A DNA stretch of 64,000 bases from Diacronema lutheri (lineage: Eukaryota; Haptophyta; Pavlovophyceae; Pavlovales; Pavlovaceae), in the NCBI GenBank assembly GCA_019448385.1, contig JAGTXO010000083.1, positions 18,652 through 82,651 of the forward strand, in the 5' to 3' direction. A program made the position numbers and the translations under genes. Below the pieces are notes generated by a model. The model was not told the origin of the DNA. It searched no databases and saw only the letters and a program-made list of their open reading frames with translations. This document shows positions 1 through 64,000 of this stretch, one piece after another (position 1 is the stretch's first letter; the number at the start of each line of letters is the position of its first letter).

Positions 1-3000
1 GCGTCGCGGCGGGCGCTGTGGCGGCCGCACCGGCTGCTGCGGGCGGTGCGACGGCGGGTGCATCGCCCATCGCGCGGCCGGCGAAGCGCGCGCGGCGCAC
101 GCTCACCGCCGCTCCAGCCGCCTCGGCCGTTGCGGCCGCTGGAGGCGCACGCGCTGGCGCACGCGGCGCGGCCGGCGCGCCTCGCGCGCGCGCCGCGCGC
201 GCGCCGGCCGAGTACGTCTGGCTTGCCATCGCGCGCCGGATGCTGGCGGCGCGACACGCGGCGGCCGCGGGCGGCGACTTTGTCGCGTCGTGCGTCGCCG
301 CGATGCAGGCCGAGTACGGCGACGGCTGTGCCGTCGTCGTCGGCGACGCGCCTGGTGACGCCTTGGTCGAGGCTGCGGCGGCGGCGCTGCTCGAGGGCAA
401 GCACGCGGCGGTGAGCCTCGGCTGCGTCGACCGGCCGGCGGTGCTCGTCGTGCAGCGCGCCGTGGATGCGCCCACGTCGCGCGTGCACGGGTGGTGCGCG
501 CACGCGGCGGGCGCCGCCGAGTTTGACGAGGGCGCCGCGCGCGACGTGTTCAACGCGATCGTCGAGCGCGCGTGGGCGCTGCGTCCGGACCCGGCCGACG
601 GCAGCCCGCCGCCCACGCGCACGTGGGAGGTCGGGCGCATCGCTGGCGACGCGCCCGACCAGGCGGGCGTGGCCGCGCTGCGCGTGCTCTACGCGCTCGT
701 CGCGGCGCACGGCCGCTACCGCTCGGCCGCCGCGCTCTTTGGCGCGCTCGCGCAGCTGCACGCGCCCGACGCCGCCGGCGCGCGCGCGGAGGTCGTCGCG
801 GCGGCGTGCGCGGTGCCGCCCGGCGCGCGGCCGGGCGCCGCGCCGGCGGCCGCGCGGGACGACGCGAGGGAGCGCGCATGGGAGGGCGCTCAGATCGCCG
901 CGCTCGCCGTCGGCGCGGACGCTGCGCGCAGGCGTGTCGCGCCCGTGCGCGCGCTCGTCGACGCGCTCGGCACGCCACCGACCTCGGCGATCACGGGCGG
1001 GCCGGCGGTCCGGCTCGCGGGCGCGGGCGACGGCGGCCACGGTGTACGGTGGGTGGGCGAGCAGGCGGCGACGCCCGCCGAGCAGCTGCCGAGGGAGCTG
1101 CTGCGCGCCTACCACGAGGCGGTGCTGTGCGTCACGCCCGGCAGCCTCCAGCTCGGCCCGGCGGCGCTCGACGCGGTCACGCGGCCGCGCGAAAACGACA
1201 CGCTGGAAGGCCTCCTCGCGCGCGTCAGCTGGCAGTGCGGCGCGAGGGCGAGCACGTGCGCCATGCTCGCCACGTTTTCCGAGCAGGCGGGCACCGGCTC
1301 GCGCGTCGCGCTCAAGGCCCTCCGCACGAGCTCCGACCTGGCCGGGCTGACGGCGGCTGCGGTCGGGCAGCAGGCGCCGCAGACGCCGCCGCCGCCGCTG
1401 CTCGTAATGCTCGGCCGCTGCCCCAGCCCGCTCGTCGGCGGCGGCCTCTTCCCGCCCGACCGCGCGACGGGCGAGCCGGCGGTGCACGCGGCGACGTCCG
1501 AGCTCGCCGTCGAGCTGCTGCGCGACGCGCGCGCGCTGGCCGGCACGGACGGGCGGCTCGTCGTGCTGTGCCTCGAGGCGTCCAACCCGCTCTGGTTCTG
1601 CCCCAAGGTGCGCGAGCTCGAGCTGCCGCGGACGCGGTCGGACGGCGTGCGCGCGTCCGGCTGCACCTGCCCTGCGACGTGCAGCGATGCGCGCGGCGCG
1701 GCGGGTGGCGCTGCCCGCGGCGCATCGACGCGGCCGGCGGCGCGCGCGATCAACAAGGCAGTGCTCGACCACTTCGTCGCGCTTTTCGGCCGCGAGGGCT
1801 TCGCGACCTTTGAGTTTGCGGGCGGCGGCGAGGCGAGCTGGCTGTGCGACAGCGCGGCCGGCACGACGACCGTCGCGGCGTGCGCGTCGCTGCCGCCGCG
1901 CATGGGCGATGGGCAGCTGGCCATCCGGCGGCACACGCTCGGCACGGGCGCCGACGCGCCGGCGCACGCCGTCGTCTCGCTCCGCGTCGCGCACGTGAGC
2001 CACGCCATCCGCCGCGCGGCGGACGACGGCGGCGCGCGCGCCGAGCGGATGGCGCGCGCCGCGCGCGCGTTCTGCGATGTGGCGGCCGCGCTGCGCGTCG
2101 ACGCGATCCTGGCGGAGGTGCCCGAGGACCGCCCGACGGGCACGCCCTTCCTTGGCGGGCTGCTCAAATTTTGGGACAAACGCAACGGGAGCTGGACGGC
2201 GCCAGCCACGCTCGCGCTCGGAGACGTGCGCGAGGTGGCCAAGCGGACGGCCGACGCAGCGGCCGGCCGAGCGGACGAGGTCCCTGCGGCTGGCCGTCCG
2301 CAGGTCGCGGCGCGCGCGTGCGCTGGCGCGATTGGCGGCGGCGCGGGCGCGGCGGGCGCCTCGGACGCTGCGCCCCGTGCACTGGCGGGCGCGTCGGGTG
2401 CGCGCACGGACGGCGGCCCTGCCGACGCACCGCGCCAGCTGGAGAGCCGCTACGGCGAGGCGAGCAAGCTCGACCTACCCCAACATTCCACTACGGGCTG
2501 CGTCCTCGACGCTCGCGAGGCCCAGGACCGCGCGCGCGTGCCTGCTGCGCCCGACGGCACAGCGCTGCGCCGCGTGCTCGACGCCGTCGGCGCGGGCGCG
2601 CCCGCGCAGCGCAGCCCGCGCTGGCACGACGAGCGATGGGAGGAGGTCACGGGCAGCAAGGTTGGCGACGTCGTGAACGACAACGCCGGCGTCGCGCACG
2701 AGACGCTCACCGACGAGTACGTGCACCGGCGGCGGCGCGAGGTGCGGACCAAGGCGACGACCGCGGGCATCCTCGGCGAGGCCGTCGCGCTGCGCAAGCT
2801 GGCGGCCGCGTACGGCATCACCGTCGTGTGCAACCTGCCGATGGTGCGTGCGGACCCGCACGACAAGAGCGCGCCGTTCGCCTTCTCGCCGGACGGGCTC
2901 GCCATCCTCCCCGAAAACAACGAGCAGGTCCTCGTCGAGGTGAAGACGCTCACCAAGGCGGGCGCCACGGCGCACGAGGACGGGCCGCCGCAGCCGCACC

Positions 3001-6000
3001 GCGATCAGCTGCAGCTCGGCATGCACGTCCTCGGCGTGAGCAAAGCGCTCTACGTGCAGTACCTCAGGCACGAGGACCGGATCGTCGTGCACGTCGTGAC
3101 GCGCGGCGCCGGCTGGCTTGCATTCGCGCAGCCGAGGGTGCAGGCCTTCTGGGCGCGCGTCGTCGAGCGGCGCGCGCGGCTCGAGCGCGCGCGCGCCGAC
3201 CACCCGGCTGCGAGCCGGCGGCACCGGCGGCAGCAGACGCCGGCCGGGCCGCCGCTCGTGCTCGCGCTGGACGGGCGCATCCCCGCCGCGCGCGCCGCCG
3301 CGCTGCACGCCGTCGCGCACGGCACCGCGAGCGCGGCGGCGGTGACGGCGGCGGCGGCGACGGGCGACGCGACGGCGTTGCAAGACGCGATCGCGGCGCT
3401 GCGCGCGCCCGTCGGCAATGCGGCGATCGCCAGCGCAGCGCGTGCGGAGGGCGCGGCCGTCGAGCGGGCGATCGCGTACCTCGGGCAGCCGGCGGGCGAC
3501 GCCGCCGCCCGCGGCACGGCCGAGGCGGCCGAGGAGGAGAGGACGGTCGACGCCGACATCTGCGCGTTGCTGCACCAGCTCGGCGCGAGCGTGGCGCACG
3601 TGCACGTCGAGGACGCGGATTGCGTCACGCGTGAGCACTGGGGCGAGGCGGTGCTCGCTGCAGCGGACGACCCGTCGAGCGCCCCCGCCATTTCGAGCGT
3701 CATCGTCGCGCACATCGTGCGCCTCGCCGGCTTTGGCGTCGAGCTCCCGCAGTCGATTCGCGTCGCCCCCAGCACGGCCGACTGGCACGAGGGCTGGCTC
3801 GACGTGCAGTGCGTGCTGCTGCGCACGCGCCGGCGCGGGCGGCGCGACGACGACTTTGTGGCCGTCGTCAGGCGCGGTGGGCGCTGGTTTGCGTGCGAGC
3901 CCGGCCGCGCGCGGCGGCTGCAGTGGCGGTCGGTCCTACGCCGCGCGCGCGGCGGCGTCGACGGGACCGGCGAGGAGGCGTTCGCGATCGTCTACGTGCG
4001 GCGCGGCGACGCGGCCGGCGACGCGGCTGGCGACGCGCAGGCCGCACGGGCGCGCGGCGGGCGCGCGCGCAGGCGCACGCGCGGCGGCACGCGCAAGCGC
4101 AAGCGCGGCGCCTCCGCCGGGCTCGAGGCGGCCGCGCCCGCCGGCGCGCCGGCTGCCGCGCCCGCCGGCGCGCCGGCGGGCGCTGCTCACCGCCCGCCCG
4201 CCATGCGCGCCACGGTCGCCGCGCGCACCACGCGCTCTGTGACCGACGCGCTGCACTCGGCGCCTGCCGCCACGGTTGCACCTGTCTTCGACTGGCGCGC
4301 CGGCCGCCCGCCCCCCGCCGCTCGAGCCCGCCACCCGCGGCCGCGTGGGCGCGCGCCACCGGGCAAGGCCTGGGACAGCGTCTCGGGTGCGTGGGCGGAC
4401 ATGCCGACTGGTGCTGCCGTCGCCGCCGCGCCGCCGCCGCTGCCGCCCGCCGCCGCGCCGCCGCCCACCGCCGCGCCGCCGCCCGCCGCCGCGCCGCCGC
4501 CCGCCGTCGCGCCGCCGCCCGCCGCCGCGCCGCCGCCGCCGCCGCCACCGGCGGCGCTCAACCGCTGGCAGCACGTCGGCGCGGGCGGCAGCGCGGCGGG
4601 CCGGCGGCTCGCGGCCATCGCACGGCGGCAGCGCGGCGTGCGCGCGCCGCCGCCCGCCGCGCGCTTCCTCGCCACGCTGCCGCCACCGCCACGCGACGGC
4701 CTCGCGCGCACGAGCAAGCAGGCGCGCGCGAGGCGCAACGCGGACGGACGGCCGGCGCACGCGCGCGCGGCCAACGCGCGCGCCTTCTACCGCGGCGTGG
4801 AGCTCGGCGTGCACGCGACGCGCGCCATCGTCGACGCGCGCCACGCCGACCTGCCGCAGGCCGTCTTCGTGGCGGAGGCGCGGGCGATCGTCGCGCGCTC
4901 CGCCGGCGGCGGCGCGCTGCTCGCGCCGGACGACGTGCGCGACCTGTGCGACGCGCAGACGGACGCCGATCGCGCTGCGATCTGGGCGTCGGTGGGCGCG
5001 CACGAGGCGACGCGCATCTTCGCGCTCGTCACGCGCAACGCGAGCTTGGCGGGCGCGGCGCTGCTCGTGCTGCACACGCCGGCGGGCGCGCCGGCGCGCG
5101 CGCTCGGGCTCCTGGCGACGCGCTCGCGCGCGCCGTCGACGGGCGCGCCGCGCGACGCGCACAGGGCGCTGGTGCAGCGGTTGGACGTGCTGATGGACGC
5201 GATCGCCGCGGCGCGAGGCGCGTCGCCGCTCGAGCTCGAGCTCGCGCTCGCGCCCGAGCCGCAGAGCGCGTGCAACGCGCGTGCGGCCGCGCTGCTCTGC
5301 CTGCAGGCCGTCGCGGACGCGAGCGGCCGTCCCGCCGCTGAGGACGCGCTGGCCGCGCTCGACGACGCGCGCGGCATCGACCGGCACTGCCACGCCGTCC
5401 GGCAGCAGATCGAGGCGAAGCTCGCGTGGCGGCGCGCCGACGGCGCCGTCGGCGTTGACGGCGCCGACGGCGCGCCCGCGCTCGCGCCTGCCGCCGCACC
5501 GCCGGCGTGCGCGCCGGCGCACGCTGCCGGCGAGGCGGCGGTCGACCAGGCGATCGTCACGCGGGTGCGCGACGCGCTGCGCGCGTGGGCGACGACTGGC
5601 ACCGCGCCCAGCGCGGCGGTGCTCGACGACGCCTGCGCCGCGTACACGGCCCGCGCACGCGCGCGCAAGGACGCGCGCACGGCGCTGGGCCCGACGCGCG
5701 CGGCCGAGCTGCTCGCCGCGGCCGCGCGCGGCGGAGCCGACGGGGCGGATGCCGCGCGCGCGCTGCTCGGCGGCACGCCGCGCCTGCTCGTCGTGCTCCT
5801 CTGCGTGCCCGTCGCCGCGCCGTCCGGCGAGCCGCCGCGCCCGGTCGGGCTGCTCGTCGCCGACCGGCCGACGGACGACTCGCGCCCGGCCGCGCTCGTG
5901 CGCTACGACTTTGCGCCGCTCGACGCGGACGTGGCCGCCGCGGTCGGCGCGCATGCCGTCGCGCTGGCCAGTGCGATCTGGCCGCTGCTCGCGGCCGAGG

Positions 6001-9000
6001 GGGAGCCGCAGCCATCGCCCGTCGTGCGCTCGCAGCCGCGCGGCGGCGACGATGGCGCGCGTGCGCTCGCAACGTTCGCGTGCCTCGACGCGCTGATGAC
6101 CGCCAGCGTCGGCGCGCACGGCCTCGCGGGCGGCGCGGGCATGCTGCCCGCGCTGGTCGCGCGAGGCGCCGCGGCCGCCCAGCGCGAGCGGCAGCTGCGC
6201 GCGGCCGCCGAGAGGCTGGGCGGCACGGTCGCTGGGTGGCCGGACACGGGCGCGAGCGCGGCGGGCGCGAGCGTCGACGAGGAGGCGCGCACGTACGAGG
6301 TCGAGGCGGTCGTCGACGAGCGCCGCAAGGCGGGCAAGAAGTTGACGTTCGAGTTCCGGATCAGGTGGCGGGGCTACGACGAGAGCGCCGACACGTGGGA
6401 GCCTGAGGCCAACGTGAGCAGCGACCTCGTCGCCCAGTTCCGCAAGACGCGCGACGAGCAGAAGCGGCGCGCGGGCGTATCGGGCAGCGGCAGCGGCGGC
6501 GCGGGCGCGGCGTCGGCATTGGCGTCGGCGCCGCTTCGCGCGCACGGCGTGTCGGGCGCCGCGGGCAAGCGCGCCGCGGCGGGTGCCGCCGCGAGCGCGC
6601 GCGACGCCGCGGGCGCGCGCGCGCCGAGCGTTCCCCGCGCGCGCGGCGTCGAGCGCGCGCGCGTGGACGAGCCCGCTGCGCCGAGCGCGCGCGCCGCCGG
6701 CGGCGCGACGGCGCGCACGCGCGTCAGCGTGCTCCCGGGCTTCGTGGTCAAGCGCTCGACGCTCAACGCGGGGCCGCAGGCGGTGACGGCGCAGCCCGGT
6801 GCGCGGAAGGAGCTGCGGCGCATCGCGGCGGCCGTGCACAGGCTCACGACACAGGCGTACCGCGTCATCAACAAGGTGGTGCGCGACGAGGCTGCGGTGG
6901 CGAGCGCGCAGGCCGTCGGCGCGGCGTCGGGCGGCCCGTCGACCAGCGTGCACACGTCGACCACGATGGACAAGGGAACCGTCCGTGCGATCTTCTCGGC
7001 CATCGGCTGGCACAAGGACGAGAGCACGTACGGTGCAGCGCCCCGAGGCAAGCCCGCCGAGCAAGCCGCCGCGCAGACCAAGGCGGCGACGGCGCGCGCC
7101 GTCGGCGAGATGGCCGAGGGCGTCCAGCCCGTCTGCGCGGTGGGCCTCACGGAGATCCTCGAGGCGGAGGCGACGCAGGTGTCCACCGCGTGCCTGATGC
7201 ATCCATCGCGCGTCGTGAACGGGCTGCTCCGCGACGTCGTCCGCGCGGCAGTCGAGCGCGACGAGGCGCTCGTCGCGCTGCCCGAGATGCAGCGAAACGC
7301 GCGCGTGCGCGAGCTGTGCGAGCGGCTGCTGCGCGGCGACGTGGAGGGCGCGCGCGTCGGCTGCCCCGCCGCGCTCGACCGCCACCTGCCCGACATGGTC
7401 CTCCACAAGATCGACTACAAGTGCACGCCCACGAAAAGGTGGAACTACGACCGGCACACGACGCGCTACTTCCTCGTGCAGATCCGCACCCTGCAGCACG
7501 TGGCCGAGGGGCAGGCGCTGCTCTGCCGGCTCGCGCACATCCACACGCAGCTGACCGGACGGCCGCCGCGGTACAATGTGGCGCCGCTGCGCACGCACAA
7601 TGTGCGCGCGAGGCGTGGCTGCCGCTGCCGCCGCCGAGCGCCCAAGCGCGCGCGCCGCCGCCGTGCGCGCCGCCCCGCGGCCAGGTTGGTCACGCGCCCG
7701 CGCGCTCGCGCGCCGCGCGCTGCGCGCAGGTGCCGCGCAACGTGCGCCTCGCCGCGAGCGCCATCTGGGTGACGCTTTCGGATGACGAGCGCAAGGAGCT
7801 GCGCGCGCGGCTCAAGGCGCTGGACCTGCGCGACCACGATGGCGAGCCGATCAAGTGGACAGGCACAAACGGCAACACCCCGCCGATGTCGGACGTGCGC
7901 GTCAGGTACGCGGTCTTTGCGACGCGCTTCGACATCTCCAACCGCGTCTTCGACTACGCCGGGCGCGAGCGGCCGCCGGCCGATCTGCCGTGGCACGCGC
8001 GGCGCTCGTGGGTTGGCCTCGCGCCGCTGCCGCGCGTGCCGCTCCCGGGCCGGCAGCCCGTCAAGTCGGTGGTGACAGATGGCGTCGCCGTGCACGCCGT
8101 CGGGACCGTCCTCGTGCCGAAGGCGCAGGCGCCGGCCGGCGGCTCGGGCGTCCTGCACCGCTGGCGCCGGCCGGACGGGCGCATCGCCGTCGCGCTCGGC
8201 TCCGAGCTGCGGCGGGCGATCGACGTCGAGGCGGCGGTCGTCGTCGCGGCCGACCCGAACATGGGCAACATCACCACCTACTCTGCGCACGTCGGGCGGG
8301 CGGCCGTCTGGCGGCAGTTCACGCAGCGCGCGCGCGCGCGCGCCGCGGGCTTTGCGCGCGAGACGGCCAAGACCAACGCGGCGCGGCGGCGCGTGCGCAA
8401 GGACGGGCGCGGCGAGGAGTTCAGCGTGGAGGCGGACGAGGCGCGGCTTGGCGAGGCGCACAGCGCCAAGGTGCTCGGCGAGGGCGAGTTCCACGCCTTC
8501 CACCGCGAGAGCGCGCGGGTGCGCGAGCGCGCCGCCGAGCACGTGTACGACGCGCCGGCGCGCCGGAAGGAGCGCTGGCGGCGCGACAGCGGCGGGCGGT
8601 CCAACGCGGCGCGCGTCGCCGAGGCGCTCATCGCGGCGCACTGTGTCGACGGCGTGACGCGCGACCGGCTGCTCGTGTGCGTGGGCAAGTGGCTGCGCGA
8701 CCACAAGGGCGCGCAGCCCAAGGGCGCGCCGCCCGCCTTCCAGGTGGGGCTGCTGCGCGAGCTGCGGCGGCGCGGCGTCGCGGCCGTCTTCGTGCCCGAG
8801 CCGTACACGTCGATGCACTGCTCGATGCCGCGGCTCGCCAAGGGCGGCAGGCTGCAGCGCTGCGGCGCGGAGCTCGCGCAGAACCCGCGCCTGCCCGTGG
8901 CAAAGGGCGGCACGCGCACGGTGCACGCGCTCGTCATCTGCCCGGCGTGCAACGGCGGCAAGAAGCCCGTGCACCGCGACTACAACGCCGCGCGCAACAT

Positions 9001-9454
9001 CTTCTACGACGTGCACGACATGGCGGCGCACGCGGCCGGGCGCGACACCACGTCGACGCCTGAGCGCTTTGCCCTCGTGCTCGCCTGGTGGGCGCGCGGC
9101 GAGGTGTGGGAGCGTGAGGAGCGCATGGTGCACGGCGAGGGCGACGACTGCGACGACGAGTGCGACGGCGACGACGAGGGCGACGACGAGGGCGACGACG
9201 ACGACGACGACGATGGCAGCGGCGACGGCGGCGGCGGCGAGGGCGACGGCGACGGCGACGGCGACGGAGGCGGCGGCGGCGACGACGACGATGACGGCGG
9301 GGGAGGCGGCGGCGGCGACGGCGGTGGCGACGACGGCGGCGGGCGCGGCGGCGGTGGCGGCGGCGGCTCTCGCGCCCGCACCCCCGCCCGCGGAGCTGCC
9401 AGCGCCAGTGCCGGCGGCGGCAGCGCGCGCGGGCCGAAGCGCGGCCGGCGTTGA
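1..9454 (+). CDS. Composite YqaJ nuclease - chromodomain - Fanzor (TnpB-like) RNA-guided nuclease, 5' partial
   Basis: The frame is open from the left edge; its first start-like codon here (18) is GTG, so the true start probably lies outside. Exons are 1-7601 and 7730-9454. The intron 7602-7729 (GTGCGCGCG...GCGCAG) joins the frames in phase 0 after RTHN, giving at least 3102 residues. Domains in order: Ala-rich N-terminus; PD-(D/E)XK YqaJ-type nuclease at about 915-1015 (E in GILGEAVA, D959, E974-V-K976, then the Q of RDQLQLG); Pro-rich linker at nt 4420-4560; chromodomain at about 2092-2144 with cage Y, W and Y (RWRGY, TWEPE); Fanzor region from about 2330, with RuvC D2703 (ADPNMGN), E2885 (VPEPYTSMHCS), D2945 (VHRDYNAARN) and a CPAC zinc ribbon; Asp/Gly-rich tail ending RGPKRGRR, NLS-like. 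Fanzors are eukaryotic TnpB relatives that cut DNA guided by an omega RNA. The fusion and its mobile origin are inference. Confidence 0.8.
7602..7729 (+). other. Spliceosomal intron inside the Fanzor gene
   Basis: The 128-base intron is bounded by GTGCGCG and GCGCAG. It is not a multiple of three, and the upstream frame degenerates into Arg/Ala shadow sequence after it. Splicing joins codon AAT (N) to GTG in phase 0 and restores a continuous Fanzor N-terminal region (RTHN then VPRNVRLAAS). Its donor matches most other introns in the window, so the element uses the host splicing style. Confidence 0.8.
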
Positions 9455-9853
9455 CGCACGGCCGAGCCGCGCAGCGGTCGACGCTTTGCGGGCTCTGCCC
9501 AGGTCGCGCGCGGCTGGCGACGCGTGCCGCGCGCGGCACGACCGTGCACGCCGCCACCCGTGGCCGAGCGCGCCGCACCAGCCGGCCCGCTCCAACCGCC
9601 GTGCGGATCACGGACGCTCGCTACGGCTCGTCGGCGCGCGTCACCTGCGCCGGCGGCCACGGCGCCGTCTGCTCCGGCCTCGTCGCGAGCAGCCCGACCG
9701 CTGCTCGCCGCCCGCACGCCGCCGCAGCAACGCTGCGCGTCGTGCTCCCCCGCTCGCCAAACGCGAAGAGCTCCCTCACAAGGACGTCCTTCCGAACGGC
9801 CCGCGCTGCACTCGGGGCGCGATCGTGCCCCTGATCGGATTTGGCTTGACCAT
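9455..9853. other. Gene-free 3' flank of the Fanzor gene, with an 18-base palindrome
   Basis: This 399-base spacer lies between the Fanzor stop and the stop of the convergent ABCG gene. No coding frame in it resembles a protein family. A perfect palindrome, CGTGCCGCG/CGCGGCACG, spans 9523-9540, about 70 bases after the Fanzor stop. Fanzor and TnpB guide RNAs usually derive from the 3' part or flank of the nuclease gene, so this is where a guide RNA or element end would be sought. Neither is proven; GC-rich DNA makes such palindromes by chance. Confidence 0.35.
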
Positions 9854-11647
9854 CTATACGTACGACGTGAAGGGCACCCAGCGCAGGCCGGCCGGGATGC
9901 CGGTCGTGTCGATCAGGTAGCCGCCCGCGTTCATCACGAGGGTCATCACCGTGCTTGCGATCATGTTCGCCTCGCCCGGCGGGGCGGCGACGGAGATGAG
10001 CATGCCGATGGCCGAGCTCGTCTGGTAGGCGAGCAGCCCGACGAGCCAGAGCACGATCGATGCGTACACGCCGAGCCCGACCATCGGCAGCGCAATTGCG
10101 AAGAAGAGCGTCGGGCAGATGAGCTCGGCCGCGCTCTCAGAGAGCAGCTTGGCGCAGAAGTACGCCTCGATCGAGTAGGCGCCCGTGCGCTTCTCCTTGG
10201 CGAGCACGGCGATCTCGCCCGAGAAGGAGAAGAGGTAAAGGTACATGGGCCACCAGCTCATGTGCGCCAGGCAGTAAAAGACGAGCCCGAGCAGCGCGCG
10301 CTCGGACGGCGGCGAGCCGTCCGCGCCGGGCAGCGCCGCGCCAAACCAGATGAGTCCGGTGATCAATGCGACCATCACACTGAGCAGCACCTCCGTCCGC
10401 GCGAGCAGCGTGCCGCGCGACTGGCGCAGTTGGCGCTGCATCAGCACCACCGTCTGCTCCACAAAACCCGCCGATGGCGGCCGCGCGCCCGCCGCGCGCG
10501 AGGCGCACGGCTCGCCGGCTGCGCGCGCCGCGCCGACGCGCGCGCGCTCGCGCTCCCACAGCTCGAGAAGCGAAGCGGCGCTGTCGGGCGTGGCGAGCAG
10601 CTCCATCGCGTAGTCAGTGAGCGTGTACTCGGCGGGCGGCTCGAAGCCTCCGTGCTGCAGGTGCGGCCTGAGCTGCGCGTAGGCGCCGAGGTACGCCTCC
10701 CTGCCGCCGGGCACGAGGAGGAGCGCCGTGTCGAAGAGCGCGCCAATCTGCGAGCTGGGCTGGTGGATCGAGCAGATGACGGCGACCGAGTGCTTCCGCC
10801 CGTACTCGCGCAGCTTGCTCATCACCGTGAGCGCGCAGCTCGAGTCAAGGCCGCTGGTCGGCTCGTCGCACACGAGGACGAGGGGACCGGAGAGCAGCTC
10901 GTTGGCGATGTTAATGCGCTGCTCGTGGCGGGTGGGCGCGGGGCGGCGCGGGCGGCGCGAGCGGTGGCGCAGTGAGGAGGGCCACTCGGGCAGGGTGGAG
11001 GAGCGCGCGGCGTGGCGGCCGCACGCCGCGCCCGCCCGCGCGCACACCTTGAGCTCGCCACCCGAGACGCCGCGCCGCATCGTCGACCCGATCGTCGTGT
11101 GCGCGCAGCCCTCGAGGCCGAGCTCGCGCAACACCTCGCGCACGCGGTCGAGCTTTTGCGCGCGCGACACGTGGCGCGGCATGCGCAGTCGCGCGGTGTA
11201 CGCGAGCGTCTCCTCGACGGTGAGCGCCTCCATGAAGATGTCGCGCTGGCGCACGTAGGCGACCTCCTGCAAGATCTGACGCCGCACGGACTCACGCACG
11301 CCGCCAGAGGCCGACGCGAGCGCGCGGCCTTGGAAGAGCACCGAACCTGTCGTTGGCGGCCGGTCGCCGCACAGCACCGCGAGCAGGCTCGTCTTGCCCG
11401 CGCCCGACGGGCCGAGCACAACCAAGAGCTCGCCCGGCAGCGCGTAGCCGCTCTGCCGAACCACGATCGGCTTGCTCCCAATGTTGAGCGACAGGTCGCG
11501 CCACTCAAAGAAGCGATCCGAAGGCTCGGTGGACGCCGCGACCGCCGCCGTTTTGCCCTCGCCCGCGCCGACGCGATCCTCGCCGGGCGCCACCTGCGTG
11601 GCGAACGGCATCGTTGGTTCTTGAGTGCTGATACGCCCGAGTATCAT
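9854..11647 (-). CDS. ABCG (White-type) half-transporter, C-terminus short
   Basis: Membrane ATP-binding cassette exporter with the nucleotide-binding domain first and membrane domain second, the ABCG order. Exons are 11647-11048 and 10918-9854. Intron 10919-11047 (129 bases, GTGTGCGCG...GAGCAG) is in frame, so retention would not break translation. Visible motifs are Walker A GPSGAGKTS, signature VSGGE, Walker B LVLVCDEPTSGLD and H-loop SIHQPS. About five hydrophobic segments follow. The start ATG at 11647 (MILGRISTQEP) is chosen over an upstream non-ATG extension. The reading stops just after PFTSY, before the last extracellular loop and sixth helix usual in ABCG proteins, giving about 554 residues. 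At the stop the DNA reads TAC|GTATAG, so it may be an unrecognised intron donor, or the gene is truncated. The substrate is unknown. Confidence 0.85.
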   Translation of the reverse strand: MILGRISTQEPTMPFATQVAPGEDRVGAGEGKTAAVAASTEPSDRFFEWRDLSLNIGSKPIVVRQSGYALPGELLVVLGPSGAGKTSLLAVLCGDRPPTTGSVLFQGRALASASGGVRESVRRQILQEVAYVRQRDIFMEALTVEETLAYTARLRMPRHVSRAQKLDRVREVLRELGLEGCAHTTIGSTMRRGVSGGELKVCARAGAACGRHAARSSTLPEWPSSLRHRSRRPRRPAPTRHEQRINIANELLSGPLVLVCDEPTSGLDSSCALTVMSKLREYGRKHSVAVICSIHQPSSQIGALFDTALLLVPGGREAYLGAYAQLRPHLQHGGFEPPAEYTLTDYAMELLATPDSAASLLELWERERARVGAARAAGEPCASRAAGARPPSAGFVEQTVVLMQRQLRQSRGTLLARTEVLLSVMVALITGLIWFGAALPGADGSPPSERALLGLVFYCLAHMSWWPMYLYLFSFSGEIAVLAKEKRTGAYSIEAYFCAKLLSESAAELICPTLFFAIALPMVGLGVYASIVLWLVGLLAYQTSSAIGMLISVAAPPGEANMIASTVMTLVMNAGGYLIDTTGIPAGLRWVPFTSYV

Positions 11648-11725
11648 GAATCTGCGTCCCGGATCCACGGGGCAATCGGCTCGCGTTCTCCGCCACAATG
11701 GCGGTTAGACTCAGCTGGGGGCATC

Positions 11726-14700
11726 TTAGAGGTCGTCGAAGGCGTCGTCGCCAAAGCACGGCTCGTCATCTTCGTCGTCGTTCGTCTCGGGGAACAGGCT
11801 GCGCTGCTTGAGATACGCGATCGCGGCGGCGATGCCCTCCTCCTTGAGCTTGAGCGGGAAGCGCCCCTTCGCCTCGTCCTTGGCGATCGTGCCGCTCGCT
11901 TCCGCCGCGCCCGAGCCGCTGTCGATCGCGCCGCCGCCGAGCGCGTTCACTACGGCACCGAGCCAGTGCATGCAGTCGAGTGCGGCGAGCTTTTCCGCCG
12001 GGCAGTAGGCGACGATGCCGAGCTGCTCGTCGCCCGCCGAGAAAAACATCTTGCCGATGTGGCCCGAGCCGCCCTTCCGCTCCTCGGCGCTCTCGTCGAC
12101 CTCTGCGTTGGCAGCGGCCATCGCAAGGCGCAGGAGGGCCACGTCTCCGTCTGCGCTGTCGATCGATGTGCTGAGATGCACAGGGGAAGGAAGGAAGGAA
12201 GGGGGGGGGGGGGGGGGGGGGGTTGTGAGGCGAAGCGCGCTGGCGATGCTGACGCCCACGCCGTGGCACCTGCGCACGTGTCGGCGCAGGTGCGCTCACC
12301 AGTAGAACTGCAAGCCGAGCATCATGTCTGCAGCACCGGCAATATCGATGGCCTTCTTGCCGCCCTCCTTGGCAGCAGCGCGCTCCGCCTTTGCACGCGC
12401 GCTGTCCGCGGACGTGGGTGCGTGCGCGTTGGGCTGCGGGCCACGCAGCGGCGCGGGAGGGCGGCACGACGCGAGTGGCCGACGGGGCGGCGGGAGGGCG
12501 CGTCACTGAGCTGCACGCACGCACGATGGGCGCAGCGGTGCGCGCTGCCCGCGAGCGGATGAGAGCGCGGCTGTACGGACGCGCGCGCCCTCCCGAACTC
12601 GACCCGGCTGTACGGACTCGGGCTGTACGGACTTGACCTGGCGCGCGCGCGGCTGTACGGACGCGCGCGGCGCGCGGCGCGTGCTTCGTGCCGGAGCGCG
12701 GCGCCGCACACCTGCCGAGCGGAGGCGCTGTCGGCCGCAGCCTTGCCGCCCTTGCCCTTACCGCCACCGACGGCAACCTGCACTCCAGCCTCGCCCGCAG
12801 CGCCGTGCGGGGCCGGTGCGTGTACGGCCACGTGCGCGAGGAGATGCTGCGCGATGAAAGCGAGCGGCTCGGCGGGCTGCGCGAGCACGACGGCGTTGAC
12901 CGCCTCGTGCAGTACCTGCGCGAGCGCGTGCTTCTCGACATAGTCCTTGGCGGCCAGCTTGGCCGCAGGCGCGGCCTGCTTACCGCCGCCACTTGCCACC
13001 TTTGGCGCGCCGCCAACCGCCGCCGCCGCCGCCGCCGCCGGCGGCGGCGGCTCGGGATCGCCGCCCTTGCCGCCACCGGCGGCGTTGGCCTTGCCGCCAC
13101 CGCCACCGCCGCCGGCTGCAGCCTTGCGCGCACCGCCTGCATCACCACCGCTGCCCTTGCCACCGCCGCCCTTACCGGTGGCAGCAGCCGCCGCCGCGGC
13201 CGGCTGCGCGAAGGCGACGTCGCCGCGCTCGTCGAGGAAGACGGGCACGGGCTTGAGCGGCGCGGCGGCCTCGAGCGCCTTCGGGTCGGGCACGGCGGTG
13301 CTCTCGTCGGTGAGGACATGGATGGCGCTCACGTCGAGCGCCGTGCAGATGTACGCTTCGTTCTCGCGCAGCACGGCGACCTCGTCGAAGGGCGGCGCGA
13401 GCTCGAACGCGGCGGCACCCTTCTCCTTGAGCTCGGCGCGCAGCGTCGCCGCGAAGACCGCCGGGTGCTTGCCGCGGGCCCGCAGCTCGGCCACCTGCCC
13501 AAGGGCCTGCATCGCTGACGTGCGCAGCTCGCGCGTCTCGTCGTCGTAGTGCTGCTTGAGCACGCTGACGGTGAGCAGCTTCCAAGCCGGCGCCTCGCGC
13601 GCGACATAGATGCGCACGGCCGCCGCCGCCTTGCGCGCGCCGGCTGCGTCCTGCGCCTTTGCGCCCGGCTTGCCGCCGGCGCCCGCCTTGCGGTCGAGGT
13701 CGGCGCGCATCTCGCGCGTGGCGCGCGCAACGTACGCGCCCTGCTGCTCGAGCAGCGCGCTCGCGCCCGCGCTCAGGTCCGGCCAGCGCGCGTGCACGAT
13801 GCAGCCGGACTCGTGCAGCAGCTCCCACACCGCCTCGCCGTAGTGCGGGCAGATCGGCGCGAGCAGCAGCGCCTGCCACCGGACGAAGCGCACCAGCAGC
13901 GGCTTGGACGGCGCGGCGGAGAGCAGACGATACCTGCCCGCCGTGCAGCACGTACGCACGCGGCGGCGCGTGAGGCGCGGCCGGGCCGCGCACGCGGCGC
14001 GCGCGGCGCTTGGCCCGTACTTGTCACGCGCCTCCTGGAACTCGTGGAATCCGTACTTGAGCGCGTCGCGGAAGGCCATGCGCTCGTAGCAGCGCGTCGC
14101 TTGGATGCCGAGCCGCACCATCTCGTTTGCAAACCAACGCTCGGCGAACGCGCCGTCGGCGGTGGCGGCGGCCGCGTCAGCCTCGCTCGCGCCGCCGTCG
14201 GCGAGGAGCGCGCGCATCCAATCAAGCTCCTTGACGAGCTTCTTGATGGCCATGTCCACCGTCTCGAGCGAAAAGTTCGCGTCCTCGTTCCCGTCGCCCG
14301 CGTCGGCGCACGCGAAGCGCGCCGCGTCTGCAGAGTATCGCGTGATCGCGTCGTGCAGCGTGAGGAAGTTCCCTTCCGACTTTGACATCTTGCGCCCGTC
14401 GACGAGCACGTGCCCGTTGGTGAACATGGAGCGCGGCCACAGCTCGGGCTGGCCCTCCCACACGGCCGCGTGGTTGTACAGCGCCATCGTCAGGTGGTTG
14501 TTGATCAGGTCCTTGCCAGAGACGCGCAGGTCGAGCGGGTACCAGAAGCGGAACTCGCGCACCATGCGCGCGAGCACGTCGGCGGGCAGGCCGGGCGGTG
14601 CGGGCTTGGCGAGGAAGACATGGTCGAAGAGCTCATCGGTGCACTGCGCGGGGCTAAGCCCGGCGGGCCCAACCGTCTGCCCGGTGATGTCGCCGCCCTG

Positions 14701-17529
14701 CAGCAGGTGCGCGATCGTGTAGTACGCCATGTAGATCGTCGAGTCCGACAGGCTTTCGATGAGGAACTTGTCGTCCCACGGCACGCGCGTGCCCAGGCCG
14801 AAGGAGCGCGAGCACGCCCACTCGGCGAGCCAGCTGATCGTCTCGTTGAACGCGCAGAGAACCGCCGGGTTGTACATGTCCATCCTCTCGTTGACGTGCT
14901 TGCGCACGGCCGCCTGCCACTCCGGCTCGCCGTAGACGAGGTACCTGCTCGACGATGCAACACGCACAGCCGGCAGCGGCCGAGTGCGCGCAAAAGGGAG
15001 CGGGCGGACGGGCGGGTGGGCGGAGGCGAGGGCGCGAGCGCGCTCAGCGCGCGGGGCGCGGTGCAGAGCAGGGCGTGCGACGCGCGCCAGCCGGCGCGGC
15101 AGGGCAGTCAGGTGCGGGCAGGGCATGGTGCGGGCAGGGCATGGTGCGGGCAGGGCATGGTGCGGACAGGGCATGGTGCGGGCAGGGCATGGTGCGGGCA
15201 GGGCAACCATGGTGCGGGCGCGTCCGACGCGCGCACCATTGGTCGACGAGGGCAACGACGCACTCGTCATCCGAGCGCGAGATCACCTCCTTGTCGGGCT
15301 CGAGGTACGTGAGCGCGCTGCCCTGCGCGACCATCAGCGCCTTGCACAGCGGCTTGGCCTCCTGCACCGTCCTGCCCGCAAACTCGCCCCGCACCATCAC
15401 GCCCTTGTAGAAGCCCTGCGTGTACACGACGTCGTGCGCCTCGGCGAGCCGCTCGACGTCGCCCGGCCCCTGCACGCCCAGCTTGGTGCACATCGCCTCA
15501 GCGGCGCACGTGCCGATGCCGGCGATCTCGATGATGGCCACGGGCTCGTACGGCTCGATCCACTCGGGCTTGATGCCGTAGAACTCCTGCTTCTTCGGCT
15601 TCTTCAGCTCGGTGAAGGCGGCGTAGTCGTCGGGCGAGTCGGACGGGACGGACGTGACGATCCCCGTCCCCTTGCCCATCTTGATCGAGAGGAGCGGTAG
15701 CATGTAGATCACCTCGTACGAGCAGAGCGGCGCACGCAGCGGCAGCCCAATCAACTCAGAACCGGGTACGCGCTCGACGAGCACCTCGCACTTGCCAAAG
15801 GCCGCAAACGCGTCCTGGAAGGCCATGTTGCGCGCTGCGCGGTGCGAGCAGACGAACACGTCGCCGCCCGGCTTCTGCTCAAAGGCGCCGTACGTGCCGC
15901 TCGGCAGCGCCCAGCAGTTGGTCTGCCCGCACATCGTCTCGGGACGGAGCGTGGCCGCGATCGCGTACACGGTGCGGCCGCGCAGCGCCGCGAGCGACGG
16001 CGGCAGCTCGAGCAGCTGCAGCTTGATGCCCGTGTACCTGTGCGTGCGCGCGCGCATGCGCGCCGCAGGGCGCGGCGCGTGGCGCGTGGCGTGATCGGCC
16101 GTGCCGCCCCTCCGACGCGGCGCGGGCGGCAACCGCGCGCGCGGCGCGCGCGCGGCGCTCACTCCTGCGGTGCGGCGCCCTCGCCCGTCCGCCTGTCGTG
16201 GTCCATGCACGGCTGCCCGTCCGCCTCCGAGTAGATGGCAGGCCGCTTGCCAAATTTAATCTTGTGCGCCGCGCGCAGTTTGTTGAACTGCCAGCGCACA
16301 AAGGCGTCATAGTACGGGTTCACGTCCGTCGTGATGAAGGAGCGGCGAAAGTCGATCTGCGCGCCAAACGCGACGAGGTCGTCCTTGCCCTTTGGCGGGA
16401 AGAATGCGAGCCAGTGCAGCGGGTCGACGAAGCGCATAATCTCATCAGCGGGCAGACCCATCGAACGCATCACGTCCCATTGGTGCACGACCCCGCCCGA
16501 CTTGGCCGCAACCTTCGACTTGACCTTCTTGCCCTTCGCGGAGGCGGCGGCCGCGGCAGCATCGAAGGGCTTGCCCACCTTGAGCTCGGCGCTCGGCGCG
16601 GAGCGCGAGCCGACCTGCCCCGCGGCAAGGAGCGGCTGCACGGCGAAGCGCACGCGGCTGTCGGTGCGCAGCTCGGCCAGGACGCACACGCACCCGCCGC
16701 CCTCTTCGTCGGGCACGGCGAACAGGCCGGATGCCTTCACGATGAACGGCCCCTCCGCTTCGCCCTCCAGACGCTCGCTCACCAGCACCTCATACCCGGC
16801 CACCTCGTGCCCGCCCGTGCACGTCGGCGGCCGCCACGCCTGCGCGCGCGGTCGCGCCGCCCACGTGCGCGCGCGCGCGAGCGCGCGGTGGGCGCCAGCG
16901 CAGCGCTGTCGCGGGCGCAACCGTGCGCGTGCGTTCTCGGTGCGCGCGGCCGCAGCGCGGCTCCGGCCGCTGTGCGCGGGCCGGTCGACGGCGCGCGCCG
17001 GGGCGCGCACGAGCGTGACGGAGGTGCCCTCGACGCTCTGGATCGCCGGCGCGCCGGTGGGGAAGTTGGGCAGCGGCGAGCCGTAGCGCGCGTACTCGTT
17101 CTTGAGCTTGTCCGCGCACGCCTTGATAGGCATGCCCGTGCAGTGGAAGCCGAATGGGAAGAGCGCCCTCTTGCCCTGCATCCGGTTGAACGCGACCGCA
17201 AACTCCGCCTTGGTCATCGAGAACGCGTGGCCGAGGTGGAGGCGGCCGTTCATGTACGGGTACGGGAACGTGACGAGGAACTTGCCCTCGGTCGTGTCCG
17301 CGCCCTCGTCCGGCGCGTCCACTTCGAAAGCCCTGCACGCCTGCGAGCGCGCCGCGCGCGCGCGCGCGCGCGCGCGCGCGTCCGCGGCGGTCGGCGCGCA
17401 TACGGCGCAGCGCCACCGGTGCTGGCGCCGGCGCGGCGCGGCCCGAGCGCGGCGAGGCGTGCGCACCGCCCATTTAGCCTGCGCGTGCTGCTGTATCTTG
17501 ATCAGCTCGTCGCGGCGCGCGGTCGACAT
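11726..17529 (-). CDS. Cytosolic leucyl-tRNA synthetase with C-terminal Dpy-30 motif and alanyl-editing-like domain
   Basis: Charges tRNA-Leu in the cytosol. Eight exons (17529-17467, 17340-17011, 16803-16163, 16037-15237, 14944-14021, 13933-12712, 12433-12300, 12170-11726) give 1519 residues with frame kept. N-terminus [14 protein letters not shown] is typical of eukaryotic LeuRS; class I signatures are HLGH ([13 protein letters not shown]) and KMSKS ([11 protein letters not shown]). Junctions rebuild family sequence exactly: [29 protein letters not shown]. After the LeuRS C-terminus and a Gly/Ala/Lys linker comes a Dpy-30-type helix pair ([19 protein letters not shown], nt 12840-12952), in the same exon. 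The last two exons encode a domain resembling the DHHA1/C-Ala part of alanyl-tRNA synthetase ([17 protein letters not shown]); that match is weaker. The exon 2-3 boundary is the least certain. The fusion is inferred from one open frame. Confidence 0.88.
12201..12222. repeat. Poly-G tract (poly-C in the LeuRS transcript) in the last LeuRS intron
   Basis: An uninterrupted run of about 22 G follows GGAAGGAAGGAAG. On the coding strand it is a C-rich pyrimidine stretch upstream of the CTCAG acceptor of intron 12171-12299. The run length may be unreliable in sequencing. Confidence 0.8.
15116..15218. repeat. 16-base minisatellite in a LeuRS intron
   Basis: About six near-identical copies of GGTGCGGGCAGGGCAT lie inside the fourth LeuRS intron (14945-15236), which at 292 bases is the longest of that gene. 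It has no coding role. Confidence 0.85.
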
Positions 17530-62675: not shown

Positions 62676-62872
62676 CCGTGGGGTCGACGGGATGAATGCG
62701 ATGACGAAGGCGATAATTTGGAGACACTATTTGATGGCAAAGTAATGGCGGCTTTCGCCGGCAGAGCAGCCATTAATTTTATATGAGGGGCGGGTCAATT
62801 TCCGGCAGCTCGAAATCATACCAGCTAATTACTCATTTCACCAACGAAAAGATTGGTGAGGTGTCGGGTAAG
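62676..62872. promoter_or_regulatory. AT-rich subtelomeric spacer
   Basis: After the minus-strand ATG at 62675 the base composition drops sharply (for example TTAATTTTATATGAG at about 62772 and CCAGCTAATTACTCATTTC at about 62821). It should hold the promoter of the nucleoside-hydrolase gene and forms the border to the TTCGGG array. No gene or known subtelomeric motif is seen. Confidence 0.5.
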
Positions 62873-64000
62873 GGTTCGGGTTCGGGTTCGGGTTCGGGTT
62901 CGGGTTCGGGTTCGGGTTCGGGTTCGGGTTCGGGTTCGGGTTCGGGTTCGGGTTCGGGTTCGGGTTCGGGTTCGGGTTCGGGTTCGGGTTCGGGTTCGGG
63001 TTCGGGTTCGGGTTCGGGTTCGGGTTCGGGTTCGGGTTCGGGTTCGGGTTCGGGTTCGGGTTGGGTTCGGTTCGGGTTCGGGTTCGGGTTCGGGTTCGGG
63101 TTCGGGTTCGGGTTCGGGTTCGGGTTCGGGTTCGGGTTCGGGTTCGGGTTCGGGTTCGGGTTCGGGTTCGGGTTCGGGTTCGGGTTCGGGTTCGGGTTCG
63201 GGTTCGGGTTCGGGTTCGGGTTCGGGTTCGGGTTCGGGTTCGGGTTCGGGTTCGGGTTCGGGTCGGGTTCGGGTTCGGGTTCGGGTTCGGGTTCGGGTTC
63301 GGGTTCGGGTTCGGGTTCGGGTTCGGGTTCGGGTTCGGGTTCGGGTTCGGGTTCGGGTTCGGGTTCGGGTTCGGGTTCGGGTTCGGGTTCGGGTTCGGGT
63401 TCGGGTTCGGGTTCGGGTTCGGGTTCGGGTTCGGGTTCGGGTTCGGGTTCGGGTTCGGGTTCGGGTTCGGGTTCGGGTTCGGGTTCGGGTTCGGGTTCGG
63501 GTTCGGGTTCGGGTTCGGGTTCGGGTTCGGGTTCGGGTTCGGGTTCGGGTTCGGGTTCGGGTTCGGGTTCGGGTTCGGGTTCGGGTTCGGGTTCGGGTTC
63601 GGGTTCGGGTTCGGGTTCGGGTTCGGGTTCGGGTTCGGGTTCGGGTTCGGGTTCGGGTTCGGGTTCGGGTTCGGGTTCGGGTTCGGGTTCGGGTTCGGGT
63701 TCGGGTTCGGGTTCGGGTTCGGGTTCGGGTTCGGGTTCGGGTTCGGGTTCGGGTTCGGGTTCGGGTTCGGGTTCGGGTTCGGGTTCGGGTTCGGGTTCGG
63801 GTTCGGGTTCGGGTTCGGGTTCGGGTTCGGGTTCGGGTTCGGGTTCGGGTTCGGGTTCGGGTTCGGGTTCGGGTTCGGGTTCGGGTTCGGGTTCGGGTTC
63901 GGGTTCGGGTTCGGGTTCGGGTTCGGGTTCGGGTTCGGGTTCGGGTTCGGGTTCGGGTTCGGGTTCGGGTTCGGGTTCGGGTTCGGGTTCGGGTTCGGGT
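62873..64000 (+). repeat. TTCGGG hexamer array, probable telomere
   Basis: About 1.13 kb (roughly 188 units) of TTCGGG runs to the right edge. It begins after TGTCGGGTAAGGG and is interrupted only near 63060-63075 (TTGGGTTCGG) and at about 63262 (GGGTCGGG). The G-rich strand points 5' to 3' toward the end of the sequence, the orientation of a right-hand telomere, and the array follows an AT-rich, gene-free border. The unit differs from the common TTAGGG by one base. An internal satellite cannot be excluded, because the window simply ends. Confidence 0.8.

Follow-up and report, generated by a model that had tools for sequence, protein, structure and literature searches.

What does a single reading frame that joins a YqaJ-type nuclease, a chromodomain and a Fanzor RNA-guided nuclease belong to, and what could it do? 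The question is raised by one end of a 64,000-nucleotide stretch (the window, C51:18652-82651, C51 being its contig) of the genome assembly of the small marine haptophyte alga Diacronema lutheri, which holds 43,492,796 bases in 103 contigs; the available text of the genome paper gives 43.503 Mb and 73.25% GC for D. lutheri NIVA-4/92 (PMC8379373). A first-pass annotation of the window had described the three-module fusion as one giant protein. We find that, as far as the reading frame goes, the fusion is real, and that the 5′ ~10 kb of the window is the 3′ third of a ~31-kb mobile element. The annotation had missed this high-copy element, together with its PIF1 helicase and, in the copy on contig C71, its ubiquitin hydrolase.

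The element occupies window positions 1-9859 on the plus strand and aligns with C71:154337-182854 over 28.5 kb at 99.1% identity. Its 3′ end is sharp, and comparison of copies showed that other copies stop at the base corresponding to window 9859 and then run into different flanks. The 5′ end lies outside the window, as C51:1, the contig start, is still within the element; comparison of C71, C9 and C36 placed this end and gave a length of ~31.0 kb in C71. As the flanks differ from copy to copy, we do not regard the repeats as products of the assembly. A genome scan with the chromodomain model PF00385, in which the best 150 of 260 candidates were scored, returned at least 146 chromodomains of the element type (146 of 150), the other four being set aside by score and frame as other chromodomain genes. 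All 16 copies that were fetched are 98.0-99.8% identical to the window over 3.15 kb, and many copies have shortened frames. The corresponding scan with PF07282, the TNB domain of the Fanzor part, gave at least 148 matches (148 of the 150 scored, the best of 306 candidates), a second Fanzor family included.

In the C71 copy, a PIF1 helicase is encoded in overlapping frames at 155.2-157.6 kb (PF05970, 1.8e-24, with a 2B domain), followed by a ubiquitin hydrolase at 158.7-160.2 kb (PF00443, 4.3e-8) and the giant gene at 163.5-182.4 kb. When the best 150 of 414 PIF1 candidates in the genome are considered, at least 100 of the 146 copies have a helicase within 40 kb upstream of the chromodomain and on its strand, compared with 3 of 146 in the downstream control. 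The spacing between the two falls into classes (79 at 22-24 kb, 11 at 17-19 kb, 9 at 14.5-15 kb and 1 at 4 kb), which point to size variants of the element.

Within the window, frame +3 has no stop codon between bases 3 and 7772, and frame +2 ends with one at 9454. A proposed 128-bp GT-AG intron in phase 0 (7602-7729, plus strand) joins the first exon part (3-7601, plus strand), an open frame with a codon-usage signal in the C71 copy, to the second, giving 3,107 codons, in agreement with the at least 3102 residues annotated before. As the window truncates the gene, the frame is longer in the contig, where its first part extends uninterrupted over C51:12903-26423 (4,506 codons). The C71 counterpart has 4,518 codons, against 1,551 for the longest frame among 300 random sequences that match the dinucleotide composition of the gene region. 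An overlapping frame lies upstream (C51:9206-13243, 1,345 codons), and its C71 counterpart shows a codon signal of the same type; with this frame joined to it, the gene may amount to ~6,000 codons. The indels that separate the C51 and C71 giant frames (+6, +24, −29 with −1, −3 and −18) sum in multiples of three, several of them falling in repeats whose unit is itself a multiple of three. The sole indel of the gene region that is not a multiple of three (−2) is inside the proposed intron, and a 2-bp indel at window 7646, also in the intron, is found in 3 of the 16 aligned copies, including C71. The YqaJ domain, the chromodomain and the start of the Fanzor lie in one uninterrupted frame, with the Fanzor nuclease part following after one proposed intron. 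A single mature protein, as annotated before, is a prediction from the reading frame. Long, low-complexity linkers of Ala, Pro and Arg separate the domains. Ulp1- or papain-like stretches were noticed in the frame by eye only, and Pfam gave no match for them. The gene is the last in the element; its acidic and glycine-rich C-terminal tail (9140-9454, plus strand, open frame) includes the stop, 405 bases before the element's 3′ end.

The first of the three modules (2622-3032, plus strand; residues 874-1010, counted from base 3) is assigned by profile, alignment and predicted fold as a YqaJ domain of the lambda-exonuclease type, for which 5′-3′ exonuclease activity is predicted. Against a PF09588 cut-off of 22 bits, the window copy scores 21.4 as a piece and 15.9 in the whole frame; the C71 copy is over the cut-off in two scans (28.2 and 26.0 bits). 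The lambda-exonuclease family model TIGR03033 matches at 2.8e-7 (30.8 bits, with a curated cut-off of 68.05). The motif residues are E926, D964, E979, K981 and Q1002; the catalytic D and E-x-K noted earlier are present, with their numbering (D959, E974, K976) five too low, the correct positions being D964 and E979-x-K981. A tblastn search with the piece 2520-3180 returned 84 phage records (limit E 10, best 3e-6), 42 of which cover at least 80% of it, and PF09588 was found in all five phage pieces that were scanned. The window keeps all 17 invariant columns of a seven-sequence alignment, including E926, D964, E979 and K981, and all 15 of a 15-sequence alignment. A PDB sequence search with the single protein found nothing meaningful, and the YqaJ piece as a single query had no relative in the viral collection; the phage YqaJ alignment recovered 14 viral YqaJ loci there. 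With the window piece and 14 viral relatives as input, AlphaFold gave a model with a mean confidence (pLDDT) of 83.2 and a predicted template-modelling score (pTM) of 0.81, and Foldseek matched it to LHK-Exo (3sz4, 1.1e-9) and lambda exonuclease (3sm4, 5.1e-9), with 25 chains at E ≤0.001, which supports the lambda-exonuclease fold. In Chaseviridae phages (L083, L084, L088 and L090), the YqaJ domain is also part of a protein of very large size; the annotations of these phage proteins read tail fiber, tape measure, virion structural protein or endonuclease.

The chromodomain (6294-6446, plus strand; residues 2098-2148) is of the HP1/CDY type. It matches PF00385 at 3.5e-12, and a PDB search returned 49 distinct sequences at E ≤0.001, with CDYL (2dnt, 1e-11) and HP1 (1kna, 1e-9) as the best. 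The aromatic cage described in the first-pass annotation is present in the alignment as Y2098, W2122 and Y2125, and these residues make it plausible that the protein is directed to chromatin with methylated histones, as proposed there.

The Fanzor follows in two parts. A probable N-terminal (WED/REC) part, with limits set by eye, would occupy 6731-7601 (plus strand) in the frame of the chromodomain; domain models had no match over this interval. The second exon (7730-9139, plus strand) is, by its sequence features, the C-terminal nuclease part of a Fanzor1, as annotated, and is predicted to cut under RNA guidance. It carries a TNB domain (PF07282, 28.3 bits, cut-off 26.3) and agrees with the Fanzor1 signature D-x(125,275)-[TS][TS]xx-C4 zinc finger-x(5,50)-RD given in the available text of PMC3627910, with a first cysteine pair that is C-x13-C and not CxxC. 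Among the Fanzor features listed in the accessible part of PMC10711439, i.e. an alternative glutamate (Ealt), a TDG motif and DPG at RuvC-I, both Ealt (E357 in PEPYTS) and TDG are present. In second-exon numbering the residues are T116-D117-G118, D175, E357, T360-S361, C364, C378, C404, C407 and R416-D417; counted from base 3 in the spliced frame, these include TDG at 2649-2651, the RuvC-I D2708, the alternative E2890, zinc-finger cysteines 2897, 2911, 2937 and 2940 (Cys 2911 from the alignment) and RD at 2949-2950. Alignment with the second Fanzor family (L082, 30% identity) showed that TDG, the RuvC-I aspartate, Ealt before YTS, the four cysteines and RD are kept. A PDB sequence search with the single protein gave Cas12f1 weakly (0.2), and a two-row Fanzor profile gave Cas12f1 at 8.7e-5 and the Guillardia theta Fanzor1 at 0.35. 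Neither the Fanzor piece nor the alignment of the window and Fz-B Fanzors found a relative in the viral collection. The second family itself (L029-L048 and L082) is of the Fanzor1 type, with DPG and CxxC and frames of up to 1,779 codons, and L082 has a repetitive hydrophobic N-terminal extension.

The element ends bear on how it moves. Its non-coding 3′ end (9455-9859, plus strand), which is a possible location for a guide-RNA scaffold, matches 361-362 of 362 bases at 100% in all 40 scored copies. A near-perfect 18-bp palindrome, read from the sequence, lies at 9814-9831, 28 bases before the 3′ end, and 18-bp palindromes are found close to both element ends; DNA folding of 9780-9861 is not better than that of shuffled sequences (z 0.00). 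An asymmetric, Helitron2-like inverted repeat (8 of 9 bases) was noticed by eye only. Of 14 fetched 5′ junctions, 13 were readable and all of these start with TATA (12 TATATA, 1 TATAGA), each after C or G. Of 15 fetched 3′ junctions, 14 were readable and 13 end in CTATAC (CATCTATAC), with the C9 copy ending in CATCTAACG. When the last and first 22 bases of the flanks were compared, none of 10 pairs had a word of at least 6 bp in common; a 2-4 bp TATA target duplication, which would be indistinguishable from the element's own end, may be present. One candidate empty site was rejected, because it is the end of another repeat with variable flanks, which differ among the six copies read. That repeat (L105-L110 and L079; 42 matches at 99-100% over 105 bases) ends in AAAGCGTCGTTAGTAT and is probably a separate mobile element, since the six copies diverge beyond that end; one 31-kb element copy adjoins it. 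Near the element's 5′ end, a MITE-like 370-bp sequence is present in two inverted copies (C71:153838-154707), and the start of C51 falls between its arms. Judged by chromodomain position, contigs C1, C5, C6, C10, C12, C26, C29, C80 and C83 appear to start at the element's 3′ end, and C33, which was read, ends there; the simplest explanation is that the assembly broke at the repeat boundary. The window copy has its 3′ end in an ABC transporter gene (9854-11704, minus strand; ABC_tran, and ABC2_membrane positions 1-197 of 211), whose stop is formed by the element's last bases, and the insertion has therefore cut the end of the gene.

Differences between copies are not evenly spread. Over 28.5 kb, 125 substitutions separate C51 from C71. 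One 8-kb block holds 91 of them, at 8-16 per kb, and the remainder has ~1.7 per kb; the variance/mean ratio is 5.3, compared with a maximum of 2.26 in 10,000 uniform placements. Over the Fanzor and the 3′ end these two copies are identical except in the intron; the window and the C50 copy differ most over this part (2.84% in the Fanzor C-terminal part, 0.61% in YqaJ). This block-wise divergence fits exchange between copies.

A cutting nuclease, a resecting nuclease and a helicase, together with a constant flank and a Fanzor by the 3′ end, fit RNA-guided homing by homologous repair. We therefore tentatively favour, at a little under even chances, a ~31-kb element whose giant YqaJ-chromodomain-Fanzor1 protein would allow it to spread by RNA-guided cutting, resection and homologous repair. 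The Fanzor would take its guide RNA from the element's 3′ end, with the adjoining host DNA serving as the guide, and would cut empty sites that start with the constant TATA-rich 5′ flank as target motif. The YqaJ domain would then resect the 5′ strands, the PIF1 helicase would aid the copying of the element into the site via homologous repair, and the chromodomain may tether the machinery to modified chromatin.

Several observations weigh against such homing. RuvC-I reads DPN (ADPNMG in the window and C50 copies) with the catalytic D kept, not DPG as in the second Fanzor family, and the single-sequence AlphaFold model of the RuvC part (pLDDT 36) is unusable, so the RuvC fold is argued from the sequence. 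Neither RNA folding of 9640-9861 (not above shuffles, z −0.64) nor an Rfam scan of window 1-12000 (no match) gave a guide-RNA signal in the 3′ end. The TATA at the 5′ junction may be the element's own end and not a target, an empty site was sought in the genome and none recovered, and the first arrival at new sites would also count against homing. In the part of the element's frames that was scanned, Pfam recognised no integrase or transposase, and no HUH, DDE, tyrosine-recombinase or reverse-transcriptase domain. The block-wise divergence may reflect ordinary recombination. Finally, purifying selection was not seen between C51 and C71 (74 non-synonymous and 24 synonymous changes, ratio 1.23) or between the window and C50 (40 + 13 then 27 + 11, ratios 1.19 and 0.86); the open frames therefore show youth and a coding origin, not present constraint.

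Other explanations divide the same evidence differently. The modules may act apart, in the manner of a polyprotein, with internal starts, alternative splicing or cleavage freeing a YqaJ protein, a chromodomain protein and a Fanzor1. The low-complexity linkers and the ubiquitin-hydrolase gene of the C71 copy would suit this, and free-standing Fanzor proteins are known from transposons (PMC3627910, available text); the uninterrupted frame from YqaJ through the chromodomain to the Fanzor start, and indels that sum to multiples of three (several in repeats of such a unit), argue against it, and we regard it as possible but doubtful. A rolling-circle or peel-and-paste mechanism is a little less probable in our judgement. 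It would require an HUH or other recombinase that escaped recognition, perhaps in the unassigned ~3,000 residues of the giant protein, with the Fanzor and YqaJ as helpers that retain copies in the manner of TnpB in IS200/IS605. The PIF1-family helicase, the palindromes close to both ends, the constant 5′ junction and the lack, in 10 flank pairs, of any target duplication of at least 6 bp are as expected for such an element, and Fanzors are reported from Helitrons in the available text of PMC3627910. Against this, Helitron_like_N is absent from the element (the one genome match, C63:35738-36019, is possibly a separate Helitron), Pfam detected no recombinase in the scanned frames, the single HUH-like triplet in a gene-B frame lacks a convincing Rep context, and the 3′ end folds no better than shuffles.

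The repeat could instead be decaying, i.e. a formerly functional element whose copies were multiplied by recombination or by assembly effects, and whose frames are still open only because these copies are young and stops are rare at 79% G+C. Although the lack of purifying selection among copies and the many shortened frames agree with this, frames of 4,506-4,518 codons far exceed the 1,551 of the random sequences, a codon signal runs along the gene, catalytic and cage residues are intact and the flanks are many and different; we find this explanation unlikely. The large size, and the occurrence of Fanzor and YqaJ-type nucleases in viruses, would suit an integrated giant-virus-like genome in place of a transposon, but the scanned frames have no viral hallmark family, at least 146 copies are dispersed in the genome, and Fanzor, PIF1 (two frames of the gene) and YqaJ as single queries had no relative in the viral collection, which makes a viral origin highly improbable. 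Returning to RNA-guided homing, the stronger claim of a new superfamily of giant eukaryotic elements, uniting such homing with a cut-and-resect polypeptide, a chromatin anchor and PIF1-driven copying and without a classical transposase, appears improbable to us at present.

Elsewhere in the window, a class I aminoacyl-tRNA synthetase with Met/Cys/Leu-type domains and an anticodon-binding domain is encoded at 12322-15282 (minus strand), and the contig ends in a telomere-like array, (TCGGGT)190, at 62864-64000.

That a Fanzor shares its frame with a recombination-type exonuclease and a reader of chromatin suggests a concrete, testable role, i.e. to break, resect and copy. If true, the element would offer natural designs in which RNA-guided cutting and end resection are coupled on chromatin, and would show how a young giant element shapes the small genome of an alga. 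At up to ~31 kb each, 146 copies would make up at most ~4.5 Mb of the 43.5-Mb assembly, many copies being shorter; the published repeat share, in the available text, is 22.9% (PMC8379373).

The first-pass annotation knew of no earlier description of the fusion, and this agrees with the PubMed Central (PMC) literature, with subscription papers and outside preprints beyond its scope, where we found no joint description of YqaJ with Fanzor, nor of a transposon with chromodomain, helicase and YqaJ together. The available texts of PMC10711439, PMC11423790, PMC3627910 and PMC10432273 do not mention YqaJ, and those of the first two contain no chromo- words. Fanzor1 proteins have been described in Helitron, Mariner, IS4-like, Sola and MuDr transposons (Bao and Jurka 2013, PMC3627910), and the D. 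lutheri element resembles these in carrying a Fanzor1 with the shared signature in a eukaryotic mobile element. In the accessible part of that paper, however, the Fanzor stands beside other genes, and neither YqaJ nor PIF1 is mentioned (PMC3627910). None of the transposases named for those transposons was recognised in the D. lutheri element. Another eukaryotic DNA transposon, ISL2EU of the PHIS superfamily, likewise encodes a protein with a YqaJ exonuclease domain; as far as its available description goes, it is ~4.8 kb long, is found only in animals, has AT target duplications and carries YqaJ in an ORF of its own, next to a DDE/THAP transposase (PMC4482050). The D. lutheri element, in contrast, is a 31-kb element of an alga, with no DDE found in the scanned frames, no duplication of 6 bp or more, and a YqaJ fused to a chromodomain and a Fanzor. 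Helitrons and Helitron2 share the PIF1-family helicase and the absence of a long target duplication (available text of PMC3627910); the palindromes near both ends may correspond to the terminal hairpins of Helitron2, with no excess folding seen at the 3′ end. The D. lutheri element differs from them in that no Rep (HUH) was found and that its ends are TATATA...CTATAC and not TC...CTRR as in Helitron1. Chromoviruses, which are LTR retrotransposons with a chromodomain, also have this domain in a mobile-element protein, whereas no reverse transcriptase or integrase was found in the scanned frames here, and no LTR was seen. The TnpB of IS200/IS605 elements is an RNA-guided nuclease at the element's 3′ end with a constant 5′ flank sequence, an arrangement that recurs here in an element of 31 kb with a fused exonuclease and chromodomain, and in which TnpA was not found. 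The parts are thus known, i.e. YqaJ and Fanzors in eukaryotic transposons, and it is the combination of the three modules that appears to be new.

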